Origin: [Pseudomonas] carboxydohydrogena
Lineage (GTDB): Bacteria; Pseudomonadota; Alphaproteobacteria; Rhizobiales; Xanthobacteraceae
Assembly: GCF_029030725.1 (NCBI RefSeq)
Contig: NZ_CP113162.1
Coordinates: forward strand, 248,001-312,000
Length of the DNA: 64,000 nt
Reading direction: 5' to 3'
Position numbers and translations under genes: made by a program. This document shows, in pieces, positions 8,866 through 15,297 of this stretch. Below the pieces are notes generated by a model. That model was not told the origin of the DNA. It saw only the letters and a list, made by a program, of their open reading frames with translations, and did not search any database. How positions within the stretch are numbered: position 1 is the first letter of the stretch; the number at the start of each line of letters is the position of its first letter.

Positions 8866-9432
8866 ATGTTCCTAGATGCGCCGAATCGCATGACGACCCG
8901 GTCCGCGCAGCGCCGCGACCGCCTGTGGGCGGGGACGCTGCTCGCGGTGATGTTCAGCGCGGGGCTGGTCGCAGGTGCGTGGCTGCCGCATGGCAGGTTC
9001 AGCAGCTCCGCGACCGATCCGGTGCGGGTGGAACGCGACCGGCTGGTGGAAGCCTCGCGCAGCGGCGACGCGGGCGTTCGTCAATCCGCACAGGTCATGT
9101 ACGTGATCGACGGCGACACCTTCGAGGCGCGGGTCCATCTGTGGCAGGGGCTCGACATCACCACGCGCGTGCGGCTGCGCGGCGTCGATGCGCCGGAACT
9201 GAAGGCGCGATGCCTCGATGAATCGCGCATGGCGCAGGCGTCACGCGACGCGCTCGCCGCCATGCTCAAGGAAGGCGACGTCACCATCTTCAATGTCGGC
9301 CCCGACAAGTATAATGGTCGCGTGGTCGCGGACGTGGCCACGCGCGCGACGCCGAATGTGTCAGCCGCGCTGATCGCCGCCGGGCACGGCCGTCCCTACA
9401 ATGGCGGCCGCCGGGCAGGCTGGTGCGGCTAA
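8866..9432 (+). CDS. Membrane-anchored thermonuclease (SNase) family protein
   Basis: The 188-residue protein has an N-terminal hydrophobic anchor or uncleaved signal (WAGTLLAVMFSAGLVAGAWL) followed by a staphylococcal-nuclease-like OB fold. Catalytic-type residues are visible in VIDGDTFEARV (metal-binding Asp), RLRGVDAPELKARC (Arg and Glu) and YNGRVVADV (second Arg). It probably acts in the periplasm on nucleic acids, but this branch is little studied. An alternative ATG is at 8890. The gene lies between the conserved rsmB/DUF1674 segment and the nrd operon. It is convergent with nrdG and overlaps its end by four bases. Confidence 0.85.
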   Translation: MFLDAPNRMTTRSAQRRDRLWAGTLLAVMFSAGLVAGAWLPHGRFSSSATDPVRVERDRLVEASRSGDAGVRQSAQVMYVIDGDTFEARVHLWQGLDITTRVRLRGVDAPELKARCLDESRMAQASRDALAAMLKEGDVTIFNVGPDKYNGRVVADVATRATPNVSAALIAAGHGRPYNGGRRAGWCG

Positions 9433-10076
9433 CGCACAACGTCATCATTCGAGAAACGCCTGAACGGCTGGATTTTGTGCTGCACGACACCGGCCGCGGC
9501 CAGATCCGACGCAAGTGCGGCAAGCTGTTGAGGGTTCAGGAGCGCCGTGTGGACCGTGGTGCGAATTTCGCAAGTCACGCCGCTGGCGAGGACGTGACGC
9601 AAACTCTCCCGCGCCTTGTCGCCGCTGCCGGGAACGCCGGTGATCCGCGCGTAGTCGTCGAACGCGGCCTTGACGTCGAAGCCGATCCAGTCGATCAGCG
9701 GCAGCACATTGGCCAGCCGTTCGGGATAGGGTCCCGCGCTGTGCAGGCCGATGCGGAAGCCGAGCGCGCGCACCGCGCGCATCGCCTCCGGCAATGTTGC
9801 CTGCAAGGTCGGCTCGCCGCCGGAAAACACCACGCCATCGAGCAGGCCCCGGCGGCTGCCGAGGAACGACATCACGTCTTGCCAGGCGATATCCGTTTCC
9901 GCGTTCGGTGGAATGAGATGCAGGTTGTGACAATAACTGCACGCCCACGGGCAGCCCTGGCTGAAAATCGTCGCGACGAGTTCGCCCGGCCAGTCGCAGG
10001 TGGACAGCCGGACGAATCCGCCGACACGCAATTCAGCGGAGCGCGGCGCGCGTTTCGCTGAAGAACCGGCGTTCAT
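9429..10076 (-). CDS. nrdG: Anaerobic ribonucleotide reductase activating protein (radical SAM)
   Basis: This radical-SAM enzyme uses a [4Fe-4S] cluster and SAM to place a glycyl radical on class III ribonucleotide reductase. The 215-residue protein carries the cluster motif CxxxCxxC in GCPWACSYCHN (about residues 41-51) and the SAM-binding GGEP in VVFSGGEPTLQ. The start codon at 10076 lies inside the preceding 59-codon glycyl-radical ORF (10033-10212), a 44-base overlap in another frame. This suggests coupled translation of the radical-bearing subunit and its activase. It is the last gene of the nrdD - small ORF - nrdG operon. Confidence 0.92.
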   Translation of the reverse strand: MNAGSSAKRAPRSAELRVGGFVRLSTCDWPGELVATIFSQGCPWACSYCHNLHLIPPNAETDIAWQDVMSFLGSRRGLLDGVVFSGGEPTLQATLPEAMRAVRALGFRIGLHSAGPYPERLANVLPLIDWIGFDVKAAFDDYARITGVPGSGDKARESLRHVLASGVTCEIRTTVHTALLNPQQLAALASDLAAAGVVQHKIQPFRRFSNDDVVR

Positions 10077-10212
10077 TGTGCTCGCCTTTTTTGCCGAGAT
10101 TGAACGAGGACACCGGGCGGTGATAGCCCATCACGCGGGTCCAGATCTCGCAGGGCTGGCGCTCGTCGTCGCGCAGCGCGATCCTTTCATCAATCGTTAC
10201 GTGCTGGTTCAT
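10033..10212 (-). CDS. Detached glycyl-radical domain of class III ribonucleotide reductase
   Basis: A 59-codon ORF between nrdD and nrdG. Its sequence contains WTRVMGYHRPVSSFNLGKKG, which aligns with the C-terminal radical loop of NrdD (RVxGYxxP, ... N.GKQ.E). In one-piece NrdD proteins this loop carries the Gly that holds the radical. The large NrdD ORF here stops just after its Cys4-type zinc site and lacks this loop. The small ORF has its own ribosome site (AAAGGAG), seven bases before its ATG and 15 bases after the nrdD stop. It is therefore a real split gene and not a simple frameshift. It must join NrdD as a separate chain for a working enzyme; that step is inferred. Confidence 0.88.
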   Translation of the reverse strand: MNQHVTIDERIALRDDERQPCEIWTRVMGYHRPVSSFNLGKKGEHNERRFFSETRAALR

Positions 10213-10224
10213 CCTTGTCTCCTT

Positions 10225-12276
10225 TCAATGCGCGGCCGCCTGCCGCTTGGTTGCGAGCCGTTCGGCGTCGCATTTCGGACAGAAGGCGTGTTCGCCTTCG
10301 AGATAGCCGTGGGTCGGGCAGATCGAGAATGTCGGCGTCACCGTGATGTAGGGCAGGTGGAAACGCGTCAGCGCGCGCTGCACCAGCTTCTTGCACGCCG
10401 CCCCCGATGACAGGCGAGAGCCCATATAAAGGTGCAGCACCGTTCCGCCGGTGTACTTGCATTGCAGTTCGTCCTGCCGCTCCAGCGCCTCAAACGGATC
10501 GTCGGTGAAGCCGACCGGAAGCTGGCTCGAATTGGTGTAGTAGGGATTTTCGTCCGTGCCCGCTTGCAGGATGCCGGGATAGCGTTTGCGGTCTTCCTTT
10601 GCGAAGCGATAGGTGGTGCCTTCCGCGGGCGTCGCTTCGAGATTGAACAGGTTGCCGGTCGCCTCCTGAAATTCCCTGATGCGCGCGCGCACATGGTCGA
10701 GCAGGCGCACCGCGAAGGCGTGGCCCCATGGCGTGGTGATGTTCTCGCAATCGGCGGTGAAGTTGCGGATCATCTCGTTGACGCCGTTGACGCCGAGCGT
10801 GGCGAAGTGATTGCGCAGCGTGCCGAGATAGCGCTTGCTGTAGGGAAACAGCCCGTCGTCCATGTAGCGCTGCACAACTTTGCGCTTGATCTCGAGGCTG
10901 TTGCGGCCGATCTCCAGCAGCGCGTCGAGGCGGTGGAATAAACCTTCCCCGTCGCCGCGATAGAGGTAGCCGAGCCGCGCGCAGTTCACCGTGACGACGC
11001 CGATCGAGCCGGTCTGCTCGGCGCTGCCGAACAGGCCGTTGCCGCGCTTCAACAACTCGGTGAGATCGAGTTGCAGACGGCAGCACATCGAGCGGATCAT
11101 GTTCGGTTTGAGTTCGGAATTGATGAAGTTCTGGAAATACGGCAGGCCGTATTTCGCCGTCATCTCGAACAGGCGGCCGGCGTTCTCGCTGTCCCACGGG
11201 AAATCGGCGGCGATGTTGTAGGTCGGGATCGGGAAGGTGAAGACGCGGCCTTTGGCGTCGCCTTTGGTCATCACCTCCATGTAGGCGCGGTTGATCATGT
11301 CCATTTCGGATTGCAGATCGCCGTAGGTGAAGCCCATCTCCTCGCCGCCGATCACCGGCACCTGATCGCGCAGGTCCTCGGGACAGGTCCAGTCGAAGGT
11401 GAGATTGGTGAAAGGGGTCTGCGTGCCCCAGCGCGAGGGGACGTTGAGGTTGTAGATCAGCTCCTGAATCGATTGCAGCACCTCGGCATAATCCAGCCGG
11501 TCCTTGCGGATGAACGGCGCCATGTAGGTGTCGAACGAACTGAACGCCTGCGCGCCCGCCCATTCGTTTTGCAGGGTTCCGAGAAAATTCACGATCTGCC
11601 CGACAGCGCTGGACAGATGCTTCGGCGGTCCTGCTTCCACTTTCCCCGGCACGCCGTTGAGGCCTTCGGTTAACAGCGTGCGCAGCGACCAGCCGGCGCA
11701 ATAGCCAGCCAGCATGTCGAGATCGTGGATATGAATATCGCCCTCGCGATGCGCCTCCCCGATCTCCGGCGGATAGACATGCGACAGCCAGTAGTTCGCG
11801 ACCACCTTGCCTGAGAGATTGAGGATCAGCCCGCCGAGCGAATAGCCCTGATTGGCGTTGGCGTTGACGCGCCAGTCGCTGCGGTCGAGATATTCGTTGA
11901 TGGAGGACGCGACATCGACCATGGTCTTGCGGTCGGCCCGCGCCTGTCCGCGCTTCTCGCGATAGACGATGTAAGCGCGCGCAGTCGCGGCATGGCCCGC
12001 CGCGATCAGCACACCTTCGACAATGTCCTGGATGTCCTCGATCCCCGGCGTGCTGTTTGCGAAGCGTGTGCCGATGGTGCGCGCGGCCTCGTGCGTGAGA
12101 CGATCCGACTCGTCATCGCCCAATGCGCCCGTCGCCTGTCCGGCGCGCGCGATCGCGGAGCGAATCCGGTTGAGGTCGAAAGGCGAGGACGCGCCGTCGC
12201 GCCTGATGACGAGAGACGGCAAAGCGAGCGGGGGTAGGTGCGCTTCGGCTTGATCATGCGAAACAGAGAGAGACAT
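10225..12276 (-). CDS. nrdD: Anaerobic (class III) ribonucleoside-triphosphate reductase, large part
   Basis: Reduces ribonucleotides to deoxyribonucleotides without oxygen. The 683-residue protein starts with an ATP-cone (LVIRRDGASSPFDLNRIRSAIARAG). The ten-stranded barrel of the family follows, with IHDLDMLAGYCAGWS, NAPSRWG-type NVPSRWGTQTPFTN, a MCCRLQLDL cysteine pair and GSIGVVTVNCARLGYLYRG. The C-terminus has the zinc site, CPTHGYLEGEHAFCPKCD, and then stops. The glycyl-radical loop is encoded by the next ORF. The ATG at 12276 is preferred because AGGAGGTG stands before it; a longer reading to 12453 would run through the riboswitch. A cobalamin riboswitch and an FNR/FixK box lie upstream. 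Confidence 0.95.
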   Translation of the reverse strand: MSLSVSHDQAEAHLPPLALPSLVIRRDGASSPFDLNRIRSAIARAGQATGALGDDESDRLTHEAARTIGTRFANSTPGIEDIQDIVEGVLIAAGHAATARAYIVYREKRGQARADRKTMVDVASSINEYLDRSDWRVNANANQGYSLGGLILNLSGKVVANYWLSHVYPPEIGEAHREGDIHIHDLDMLAGYCAGWSLRTLLTEGLNGVPGKVEAGPPKHLSSAVGQIVNFLGTLQNEWAGAQAFSSFDTYMAPFIRKDRLDYAEVLQSIQELIYNLNVPSRWGTQTPFTNLTFDWTCPEDLRDQVPVIGGEEMGFTYGDLQSEMDMINRAYMEVMTKGDAKGRVFTFPIPTYNIAADFPWDSENAGRLFEMTAKYGLPYFQNFINSELKPNMIRSMCCRLQLDLTELLKRGNGLFGSAEQTGSIGVVTVNCARLGYLYRGDGEGLFHRLDALLEIGRNSLEIKRKVVQRYMDDGLFPYSKRYLGTLRNHFATLGVNGVNEMIRNFTADCENITTPWGHAFAVRLLDHVRARIREFQEATGNLFNLEATPAEGTTYRFAKEDRKRYPGILQAGTDENPYYTNSSQLPVGFTDDPFEALERQDELQCKYTGGTVLHLYMGSRLSSGAACKKLVQRALTRFHLPYITVTPTFSICPTHGYLEGEHAFCPKCDAERLATKRQAAAH

Positions 12277-12307: not shown

Positions 12308-12389
12308 AAAGGCGCGCATGAACAATGCGGAGAGAAACCGCAGACGAACACGCGACCGCCGGACTCCCCGCCCGTGGACGTTCTGGTGT

Positions 12390-12560
12390 CGCGGCAGGTC
12401 TCCTGGCTTGCAGGTCGGCGTCGATTCCAGTCTTCCCGAAGCGATGATCGCATCAGTGACGTGGTTGGAATCGACTCGCTGCTGACAGTTGCGGGGGCAG
12501 CGCCGGATTTGCCGCTGTCGCGGGTTCACCGGCTTCCCTCTTAGCTACTAAATCTTGCGA
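12390..12560 (-). ncRNA. Cobalamin (B12) riboswitch upstream of nrdD
   Basis: Read on the minus strand the leader shows the conserved blocks of the cobalamin aptamer in order: AGGGAAGCCGGTGAA, then GCTGCCCCCGCAACTGT, then a variant of the B12 box (GTCACTG), then GGGAAGACTGG, and at the end AAGCCAGGAGACCTGCC. It lies about 115 bases upstream of the nrdD start with no gene between. Family knowledge: adenosylcobalamin binding normally turns the downstream gene off. Class I or III reductases are a known target in bacteria that also own the B12-dependent class II enzyme. No class II gene is visible in this window. Confidence 0.93.
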
Positions 12561-12611
12561 CTCAGTAGAACCGAGACCCATGCATTTAGTGTTATCTCGG
12601 CAAAATTGTCA

Positions 12612-12767: not shown

Positions 12768-12966
12768 CGCACGCGGCTTGCCGCAGCAACGGCGCTTCGG
12801 ACGATCATCGGGAAACGGAAGATCGAACGCCAGCTTCAATCCGATCGAAAAGAAAGCCGCTTGAATTCGACCTTTTCGCGCGCCGCGTTTTCCTTAGAGG
12901 CATTCCATTTTTATAGCGCATCAAGCGTTGTATCTGTTGCCGCGCAGCTTGCTTCCACCACCTGGA

Positions 12967-15297
12967 ATGTTTTCCGTGACGCGCAATTTCAATCTTCGAC
13001 TCAAAGATGTCTCCTGCTTCTCGTTGAATGGAAACAAGAGATGCCTGCTCGCCAGCGCGGCGGTTCTTTTTGCAAGTTTCTCGATTCTTCCGCATGGCGC
13101 TTACGCACAGGAACGCCAGGAACTCCCGGCTTTGACCATCGACGCTCCAAAGCCGAACTCCAAAAGAGTCAAACCAAGACCGTCGCCCAATCGTGTGCAA
13201 GCGGCTCGCCGGCAGAATCGTAACCCAAGCCCCGTGCCACCCACGGCCTCCGAACGTGCAGCGGCGGCGGCAGTGAAATTGAACGAGGCAAAGCTGGGAT
13301 ATCGGGCGATGCCAAGCGCCACGACGTTACGCACAGGCGCGGCGCCACTCGATACGGCTCAGTCGGTAAATGTCGTCCCGGAGCAAGTTCTGAAGGATCA
13401 GCTGCCGCGTTATCTTGATGATGCGCTCGGAAACATATCCGGCATCACCCAAACGAATACGCTCGCGGGCACCCAAGACGCCATTATCCGCCGTGGCTTT
13501 GGCGATAACCGCGACGGATCGATCATGCGTAACGGGATGCCGCTGGTGCAAGGCCGCAGCCTTGGTCCGAGTGTCGAAAGCGTGGAAGTCCTGAAGGGAC
13601 CGGCATCGCTGCTTTACGGCATTCAATCTCCAGGCGGCATCGTCAATACGATCAGTAAACAGCCTGAGTTGTACCAGCATGGATCGGTTACCTTGCTGGG
13701 GTCCACGTTCGGGGGCGGAAAGAACGGCGCGAACGGAATCTTCGACATCACGGGCCCGATTGGCGACAACGGGCTGGCCTATCGTTTTATAGGCTATGGA
13801 ATGGACGAGGATTACTGGCGCAATTTCGGCCGTAACCGCGAAATGCTGGTGGCTCCGTCGCTCGCATGGTACGGCGAGAACACCACGATCAAATTGAACT
13901 ATGAGCATCGTGAATTCAGCTACCCGTTCAACCGGGGCACTGCATTTGTCAACGGCTCACCGCTGCCGATTCCCGCGACGCGGCGGCTGGACGAGCCCTT
14001 CAATAAGTTCTGGGGCCGCTCCGATCTCGTTCAAACGTCGCTCGAACATAAATTCAATGAAGATTGGAAGATTACGGCAGCCTACACCTATAACGCCGAG
14101 AGCTACGACGCCAATCAGCTTCGCGCCACTTCGGTCGATGTCAATACCGGCATCGAAAAGCGCAGCAATGACGGCACGCATGGCGCGCTTAGCTATATCA
14201 ATTACGGGACCAGTTACCTCAACGGCCGCGTCTGGACGGGCGATATCCTTAACGAGGTGATGCTTGGCTTCGATGCGCAAGACCGAACGATCTACAGAGC
14301 GGACCTCATCCGGCAGGCAGCGCCCAACTTCAATTTCTACAATCCGGTTTATGGCCTGATTCAGCCCGGCACCACCGTGTCTCCATCCGACAGCGATCAA
14401 ACCGATAAATTATCCACGCGGTCGATCTTCCTCCAGGACACGCTGCATCTGACCAACTGGTTCTATTTGGTGGGAGGCTTGCGCTGGATGGAATACGACC
14501 AGTTGGCGGGGAAGGGCCGTCCCTTCGTCACCAACACCGATTTAAGCGGAAGTAAAATTCTTCCGCTCGGCGGGGCGATCCTGAAGCTCAACGATCAAGT
14601 ATCGCTCTATGCAAGCTATACTCAATCGCTTCAACCCACATCGACGATCGCGCCACTCACTGGCGGCTTTGTTATCGATTCCAACGTCGCTCCCGAGGAG
14701 GGCACTCAATGGGAAGCAGGCATGAAATTCGATTTCAACAAGCGCCTGTCAGGCACGATAGCCTGGTACGACATCGACAAAAGGAACGTGCTGGTTTCGC
14801 AATTCAATTCATCGACGGGGCTCAACGAATACCGGACCGCGGGCAAGGTCCGGTCCCGAGGAGCGGAAATCGATGTCACGGGCAGGCTGACCGACAACTG
14901 GAGCATGATTGGAAGTTACGGTTACACCGATGCAGTCGTGACTCAGGATCCGGTCTTCATCGGGAACCGGTTGCAGAACGTGGCCATGAACACGGCCTCG
15001 CTCTTTCTGGTTTATGATTTCGGAACGATGCTGCCGGGGCGGCTGCGTATCGGCGGCGGCGCCCGTTACGTGGGGGATCGCCCCGGAGATAACGCCAACA
15101 CCTTTGTTCTTCCGGCGTACACAGTGGCGGACGCTTTTGCCACTTACGAGACGAAGTACGATCACACGCCTGTCGTCTACCAGTTCAACATCAAGAACAT
15201 GTTTAACACCGTCTATTACCCATCCGCCGTCAACTCCCTGAACGTGGCGATGGGAGACGCAAGGCGCTTCTCGCTTTCCGCGACCGTAAAGTTCTAG
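12967..15297 (+). CDS. TonB-dependent siderophore receptor
   Basis: An outer-membrane beta-barrel that takes up a ferric siderophore with energy from TonB-ExbBD. From the ATG at 12967 it has 776 residues; a longer start at 12928 is open but has no better ribosome site. The signal peptide ends near HGAYAQE. A lysine/proline-rich linker follows, then the plug (TAQSVNVVPEQVLKDQ, SVEVLKGPASLLYGIQSPGG, GGIVNTISKQP) and the barrel, with the usual terminal aromatic in SATVKF. No STN signalling domain is seen, so it is a plain receptor of the FhuE/FoxA kind. The ligand cannot be told. Base composition is visibly less GC-rich than the flanking backbone genes. Confidence 0.93.
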   Translation: MFSVTRNFNLRLKDVSCFSLNGNKRCLLASAAVLFASFSILPHGAYAQERQELPALTIDAPKPNSKRVKPRPSPNRVQAARRQNRNPSPVPPTASERAAAAAVKLNEAKLGYRAMPSATTLRTGAAPLDTAQSVNVVPEQVLKDQLPRYLDDALGNISGITQTNTLAGTQDAIIRRGFGDNRDGSIMRNGMPLVQGRSLGPSVESVEVLKGPASLLYGIQSPGGIVNTISKQPELYQHGSVTLLGSTFGGGKNGANGIFDITGPIGDNGLAYRFIGYGMDEDYWRNFGRNREMLVAPSLAWYGENTTIKLNYEHREFSYPFNRGTAFVNGSPLPIPATRRLDEPFNKFWGRSDLVQTSLEHKFNEDWKITAAYTYNAESYDANQLRATSVDVNTGIEKRSNDGTHGALSYINYGTSYLNGRVWTGDILNEVMLGFDAQDRTIYRADLIRQAAPNFNFYNPVYGLIQPGTTVSPSDSDQTDKLSTRSIFLQDTLHLTNWFYLVGGLRWMEYDQLAGKGRPFVTNTDLSGSKILPLGGAILKLNDQVSLYASYTQSLQPTSTIAPLTGGFVIDSNVAPEEGTQWEAGMKFDFNKRLSGTIAWYDIDKRNVLVSQFNSSTGLNEYRTAGKVRSRGAEIDVTGRLTDNWSMIGSYGYTDAVVTQDPVFIGNRLQNVAMNTASLFLVYDFGTMLPGRLRIGGGARYVGDRPGDNANTFVLPAYTVADAFATYETKYDHTPVVYQFNIKNMFNTVYYPSAVNSLNVAMGDARRFSLSATVKF

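Follow-up and report, generated by a model that had tools for sequence, protein, structure and literature searches.

The 64,000 nucleotides that we analyzed from [Pseudomonas] carboxydohydrogena (positions 248,001 to 312,000 of NZ_CP113162.1; "the window") appear to encode a class III anaerobic ribonucleotide reductase (RNR) in two chains: a large NrdD that ends before the glycyl-radical loop, and a 59-residue chain that carries the loop and would be a trans-acting radical subunit. We put the probability of this reading at roughly 0.87. Textbooks describe class III RNR as one chain with an activase. Here, the two pieces are separate genes. The small gene is conserved, has a low ratio of nonsynonymous to synonymous substitution rates (dN/dS), and is found in every frame relative to nrdD; there are unlinked and solo copies of it; and a second type of NrdD is split as well. 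We infer that the small chain is translated, docks onto the large chain, and receives the radical in trans, and that it could be exchanged after oxygen damage.

The split nrdD locus

On the minus strand, in 5' to 3' order, the locus consists of a cobalamin riboswitch, nrdD, a small open reading frame (ORF), and nrdG:

12376-12590, minus strand: cobalamin riboswitch upstream of nrdD (RF00174, 130.6 bits, E = 1e-33)
10225..12276, minus strand: nrdD large chain, 683 amino acids, ATG at 12276 (NRDD positions 2-530 of 562; NF006126, 1124 bits)
11077..11088, minus strand: finger loop Met-Cys-Cys-Arg, residues 397-400, of the double-cysteine type
10270..10320, minus strand: presumed zinc site on the large chain (C653, H656, C666, C669)
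10225-10227, minus strand: TGA that ends nrdD; in this genome the small ORF shares its frame
10219-10224, minus strand: ribosome-binding site AAGGAG, 6 nucleotides ahead of the small-chain ATG
10033-10212, minus strand: small radical chain, 59 amino acids, the second gene of the split nrdD; ATG at 10210-10212
10111..10137, minus strand: glycyl-radical loop RVMGYHRPV; the putative radical glycine is residue 29 (codon 10126-10128)
9429-10076, minus strand: nrdG activase, NrdG2 type, 215 amino acids (TIGR02495, 194 bits; cut-off 131)

The range 10033-12276 holds both NrdD pieces, and nrdG and the riboswitch are part of the same unit. Twelve bases separate the nrdD stop from the start codon of the small ORF. 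The two ORFs share a frame in this genome, with four codons between them and a single TGA separating them. The nrdG gene, taken from its longest-ORF start, begins inside the small ORF and overlaps it by 44 nucleotides. An activase gene next to the NrdD genes is as expected of a class III RNR. The initial annotation of this DNA had described a large ORF ending right after the zinc site, a 59-codon ORF with its own ribosome site and the RVMGYHRPV loop, and an nrdG start within that ORF, and all of this is borne out.

The large chain contains an ATP-cone (residues 23-110), followed by the barrel, the MCCR finger loop, and the zinc site. It matches positions 2-530 of the 562 positions of NRDD (Pfam) with 577 bits. 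M397-C398-C399-R400 are invariant in alignments of 40 and 37 large chains, as are C653, H656, C666, and C669, which, as in the NrdD family, would be the zinc site. (Small-only rows, whose heads were misaligned in an earlier alignment, were omitted from these alignments.) Types of NrdD finger loop are described in an excerpt of PMC9669993. The large chain ends in TFSICPTHGYLEGEHAFCPKCDAERLATKRQAAAH, with the stop 14 residues past the last zinc cysteine; the CxxH...CxxC of the zinc site is retained and the radical loop is missing. A standard class III RNR has the loop on the same chain; here it is on the separate 59-residue ORF. Many split large chains also carry a conserved CDxE...KR-like tail beyond the zinc site.

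The small chain matches the part of NRDD that is missing from the large chain (positions 530-562; 29.6 bits, with a cut-off of 26.2). R26, M28, G29, R32, and P33 are invariant in 24 of 24 rows of a small-chain alignment, and by homology to NrdD, Gly29 would be the radical glycine. A conserved DxERQPCE segment heads the small chains. Its cysteine, Cys21 (codon 10150-10152, minus strand), is nearly invariant in split chains and absent from one-piece relatives such as L058 (we number loci with L and genomes with G). Candidate roles for Cys21 are zinc ligand, tether, or redox residue. As a small stand-alone ORF with a radical-loop glycine, the chain is built like GrcA/YfiD, but it does not belong to that family by sequence: Pfam searches up to E = 1 gave only NRDD and no glycine radical domain of the pyruvate formate-lyase type. 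Against solved structures, a small-chain profile found nothing significant: the matches were two NrdD (the 4coi set and 4u3e; E = 0.18-0.19) and an unrelated chain (E = 0.54). Two pairwise estimates for this short gene give a low dN/dS: compared to Afipia sp. 64-13, dN is 0.079 and dS is 0.489 (45 codons outside the nrdG overlap), and compared to L115, dN is 0.015 and dS is 0.41 (29 codons).

The genome is one contig of 3.27 Mb and is 99.9% complete. A second full-length NrdD, a possible objection raised by the initial annotation, was sought in this genome and not found; there is one NrdD match only. A profile of 24 small chains identified one copy in the genome, along with one chance-level match (E = 0.67). 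The genome also encodes a class II RNR (563 bits, above the cut-off, with its neighbors), and a further RNR match below its cut-off (379.5 of 399.95 bits) is probably class I. Riboswitch control of B12-independent isozymes is a known regulatory logic. The arrangement seen here agrees with it: a B12-type switch precedes an anaerobic RNR that does not need B12, and the genome also encodes a class II enzyme.

Distribution and origin of the split

We examined four samples of genomes, which overlap in some genomes: the order, the class, and the phylum of the window's genome, and a second class from that phylum (that of G794). (The nearest NrdD to the window's on our tree is that of Afipia sp. 64-13.) In the order, NRDD is present in 18 of 397 genomes: 17 are split (in G243, in contig pieces) and one is one-piece. 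In the class, NRDD is present in 46 of 385 genomes: 32 split, 12 one-piece, one with the small chain only, and one unclear, with G551, G753, and G553 assigned by follow-up analysis and the small chain of G753 identified by its motif. (G551's locus, L289, is a single open frame and is not split.) The phylum sample has NRDD in 57 of 398 genomes (15 split, 41 one-piece, and one weak match), and the second class in 28 of 274 (20 split, 6 one-piece, and 2 partial). One-piece forms prevail in the phylum sample, but the statement in the initial annotation that one-piece NrdD is the rule is wrong for this branch, where most of the sampled NRDD genomes from the order and the two classes have the split form.

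In all four samples, a loop-less NrdD is always accompanied by a small chain in the same genome (17/17, 32/32, 15/15, and 20/20). The samples' tables list no separate small chain in any genome with a one-piece NrdD. When we compared the small-chain profile to genome contigs, there were at least 579 matches. The best 80 of these comprise 74 split pairs, five small chains without NrdD in the flanks examined, and one frame-broken record from Massilia that was counted as one-piece; at least one more frame-broken record (Paludibacterium L179) is among the 74. E. coli-type one-piece NrdDs were scored as having no small chain in this tally, as the small query does not reach them. The same two-ORF arrangement is found in named alpha-, beta-, and gammaproteobacteria, including Rhodopseudomonas, Thauera, Acidovorax, Janthinobacterium, Stenotrophomonas, and Acidithiobacillus. 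Because the arrangement recurs in relatives, it is beyond chance. In three RefSeq records with both ORFs, the automatic labels are "nrdD" for the small chain and "ribonucleoside triphosphate reductase" for the large chain, which conceals the two-subunit nature of the enzyme. In one locus (L090, from Bradyrhizobium japonicum pS11L-3), an IS3-family element (ISRj2) lies inside nrdD, and the small gene and nrdG seem intact.

In four genomes, the only small chain that we found is unlinked to nrdD: it is on another contig in G498, G667, and G692, and in G1025 the two genes share a contig but are about 9 kb apart. It adjoins nrdG in G667 and G1025. Other genomes (G398, G468, G678, and G485) carry at least one small chain elsewhere in addition to the one next to nrdD; G1463 also has an extra small chain, and G584 and G465 have weaker extra matches.

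We also compared the nrdD/small-gene junctions of 121 distinct relatives. Counted from the nrdD frame, 32 of the small ORFs are in frame 0, 43 in frame 1, and 46 in frame 2. The nrdD gene ends with TGA (71), TAA (35), or TAG (15), and the small ORF begins with ATG in all but one (120/121). The gap has a median of 29 nucleotides and ranges from -41 to 298, with 13 overlaps. A ribosome-site match of at least 5 nucleotides precedes 101 of the 121 small-gene starts, compared to 157 of 2,374 unchosen ATGs inside nrdD, a contrast that is inflated because the starts were partly picked by ribosome-site score. The window's nearest relative (L116) likewise has two ORFs in one frame with a single TGA, but in another near relative (L115), the small ORF is in a different frame from nrdD. 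The variable frame and the four genomes with the small chain elsewhere support the proposal of the initial annotation that the radical residue acts in trans.

To place the split forms, we built a quick tree (LG+G4) from 102 of 149 NrdD rows, with the sequences cut before the last zinc cysteines. The tree omits 12 truncated, frame-broken, duplicate, or second-type rows (including L032 and L086, described below), seven near-copies, and about every second split row from the genome contigs. The rows are labelled as 77 split, 20 one-piece, and 5 large-only, where a strict threshold mislabelled L050 and L288 as large-only; both do have a small chain. Three changes between one-piece and not one-piece are enough to explain the tree, with several deep forks open. 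A split row from Sulfuricurvum (L092) clusters with seven one-piece rows (a starred fork). Either one origin with re-fusions or two origins could account for its placement. One-piece relatives such as L058 lack both the CDxE...KR tail and the DxERQPCE head. L031 and L033 are single ORFs with the split-type RQxCEVW motif, and they are placed among the split rows (fork support 94, not starred), as secondary fusions would be. The split-type CEVWTRVMGY head is found in five one-frame NrdDs, namely these two and L289, L297, and L298, which are not on the tree; judging by this head, all five are likely re-fusions.

In another order of the class, a different type of NrdD shows a break at this same position. 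NRDD is present in 7 of 120 genomes of that order, and the split is found in four species of one genus (G553, G1066, G1113, and G1200; loci L032, L086, L296, and L295, respectively). L032 matches NF005497/PRK07111 with 977 bits and is 22% identical to the window's NrdD. This second type has its own small chain, which contains RRITGYLVGTLDRFNNAK. The four junctions have the stops TAG, TAG, TGA, and TAA, with frame 0 twice and frame 1 twice. The remaining three NRDD genomes of that order are one-piece, including G1184 from the same genus, which has an E. coli-like type. The split of the PRK07111 type is apparently a second, independent origin.

Solo small chains and known systems

Small chains without NrdD are also found in viral contigs. 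A scan of IMG/VR gave 226 related stretches, some of them near-copies, and we examined the best 80 with flanks of up to 4 kb per side (often less). Neither NrdD nor NrdG is present in these flanks for 79 of the 80; the remaining stretch is a split pair. We searched 30 of these viral records, which may be fragments, in full: 29 have only the small-chain match and no NrdD (one has a match below the NRDD cut-off), and none of the 30 reaches the NrdG2 cut-off, although two have sub-cut-off matches to radical S-adenosylmethionine proteins. Phage hallmark genes are neighbors at five of the six viral loci scanned: integrase and endolysin (L199), tail fibre or virion proteins (L265, L238, and L235), and head-tail or portal proteins (L249). 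The sixth (L201) matches families of unknown function and ATPase-like ones. In L199, the solo chain sits between the endolysin and the integrase, and a reverse-transcriptase-like gene is nearby. An alignment of 21 rows, which includes 17 of the 80 viral chains, chosen by hand, shows no variation at Gly29 or Cys21. The best PHROG family for the window's small chain (E = 9e-10), and for five viral small chains scanned, is phrog_4132, which is listed as of unknown function; only about positions 113-156 of its 179-position profile match.

In contrast, we did not recognize a solo small chain in 50,697 deposited phage records. Two of the records matched weakly, at 41-42% identity: ANMV-1 virus, whose protein is annotated as an anaerobic RNR, and an unannotated record. 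The phage finding therefore rests on the IMG/VR contigs. Another solo small chain is on plasmid pAt1 of Allochromatium tepidum (L093, 2460-2645), with no RNR gene in the 5.6 kb examined around it; its neighbors encode a zinc-finger (DUF3268) protein and a DUF4942 protein. One viral NrdD (L195:1359-3812), which is followed by a small radical chain, has a mini-intein-like insert of about 137 amino acids between the two finger-loop cysteines, ending in ...THN|C (Pfam Intein_splicing, E = 0.002, below the cut-off).

The closest comparison is with one-piece NrdD of the NF006126/PRK08270 type, which shares the ATP-cone, the barrel, the MCCR finger loop, the zinc site, a loop of the RVMGYxRP type, and the adjacent NrdG2. 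Unlike these proteins, the window's enzyme carries its loop on a separately encoded chain whose N-terminal DxERQPCE segment is new, and split large chains have the extra tail past the zinc site. Split RNRs of other classes are known, namely the class II NrdJab of Pseudomonas and the class I alpha chain of phage Aeh1; unlike the window's enzyme, these have no glycyl radical. They are alike in that the catalytic chain is made as two polypeptides (excerpt of PMC3267527). YfiD/GrcA and Y06I of phage T4 are, like the window's small chain, small stand-alone glycyl-radical-loop proteins, one of them from a phage (excerpt of PMC8683613). But these act with pyruvate formate-lyase, whereas the window's small chain belongs to the NrdD family by sequence, and unlike the partner of YfiD/GrcA, its partner is loop-less from the start and not through oxygen loss. 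The same 2021 study considers spare parts for further glycyl radical enzymes possible and names YfiD and T4 Y06I as the only validated ones. Among the open-licence literature matches listed, the titles and the openings of the abstracts do not describe a split NrdD or an RNR spare part.

Genetic data are available for one operon of the split kind, the nrdDG of Cupriavidus necator H16 megaplasmid pHG1, which encodes a large chain of 676 amino acids, a small chain of 66 amino acids, and nrdG. According to an excerpt of PMC2864759, nrdDG is essential for complete denitrification in H16 (citing Siedow 1999), and a mutant that lacks the plasmid has a defect that B12 counteracts (citing Cramm 2009). 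The same excerpt lists NrdDG of C. metallidurans as Rmet_5137 and Rmet_5139, with one tag between them. The DNA there encodes a small chain in a different frame from the large chain, and the skipped tag would be the small gene.

Mechanism and alternative readings

If the enzyme works as two chains, the large chain would provide the ATP-cone, the catalytic barrel with the MCCR finger loop, and the zinc half of the glycyl-radical domain, and the 59-residue chain would dock in trans into the mouth of the barrel, beside the zinc site. NrdG would generate the radical at the small chain's Gly29, from where it would pass to the finger-loop cysteine, as in one-piece NrdD. An oxygen-cut radical end might then be exchanged cheaply, which is conceivable because the oxygen-vulnerable bond sits in a 59-residue chain. 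We predict that in many Proteobacteria, expressing NrdD in the absence of the small gene would give an inactive protein. With the loop encoded separately, the radical carrier of an essential enzyme may be something that the cell can replace, and this may give a handle on how facultative anaerobes survive oxygen pulses.

Stop read-through or frameshifting could instead yield a full-length NrdD, with the small ORF being merely its 3' end, and the single TGA between in-frame ORFs in the window and L116 is consistent with this. But only about a quarter of the junctions are in frame 0, all three stops are used, there are overlaps and long gaps, L115 has its small ORF in a different frame, and the unlinked small genes are out of reach of read-through. 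These observations rule out recoding as a general explanation. The initial annotation considered a frameshift unlikely, and across the junctions there is likewise no sign of read-through as a general device; we consider this alternative very improbable. The initial annotation did not mention the single in-frame TGA, however, and low-level read-through may occur in this genome and in L116, which counts as a point against the two-chain reading. Other such points are that the genomes with unlinked small chains are drafts (30-120 contigs, 96-100% complete) and that the H16 genetics bear on the operon and not on the small gene alone. The in-frame TGA might also reflect a recent nonsense mutation that removed the C terminus of a dead or decaying nrdD. 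We give this practically no weight: decay is ruled out by the wide recurrence of the split across alpha-, beta-, and gammaproteobacteria, the low dN/dS and the ribosome site of the small ORF, and the retained catalytic and zinc residues, and there is a cobalamin riboswitch in front of the gene.

A different alternative accepts both genes but has the large chain act without a loop, or with another source of radicals, while the small chain is a regulator or decoy. Viral contigs that have a solo small chain but neither NrdD nor a match above the NrdG2 cut-off are in line with this. Given that Gly29 and the motif are invariant in the aligned host and viral chains, and that no loop-less NrdD was counted in a genome lacking a small chain, we consider it improbable. 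A more serious possibility, to which we give a little less than even odds, is that the split exists primarily for repair, with the small chain as an exchangeable, YfiD-like spare for oxygen-cut loops. The further small chains beside the adjacent one in five genomes (G398, G468, G678, G485, and G1463), the viral and plasmid solo chains, and the view that spare parts are possible for other glycyl radical enzymes (excerpt of PMC8683613) point this way. But a two-chain assembly is possible without exchange, prophages or binning errors may account for some of the extra copies, and the deposited phage records lack solo chains. The solo copies in viral contigs and in some bacteria fit with exchange, and those in viral contigs and on the plasmid make the idea of a spare part more attractive, although they do not prove it.

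Extending the two-chain reading, many proteobacterial class III RNRs might consist obligatorily of two chains, one of them an exchangeable radical subunit, and phages might carry this subunit by itself (PHROG 4132), maintaining or re-activating a host RNR that oxygen has damaged and thereby securing deoxynucleotides. We hold this more tentatively than exchange itself, because it is contained in the exchange reading and the null result from deposited phages counts against it. If true, this would be the first spare-part system for an RNR. The viral solo copies would also propose a function for a family that is labelled as unknown, and they suggest that phages may support the host's anaerobic deoxynucleotide supply with one protein of about 60 residues.

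Divergent from nrdD, on the plus strand, is an ORF of 789 amino acids (12928-15297), which we presume to resemble a TonB-dependent siderophore receptor.

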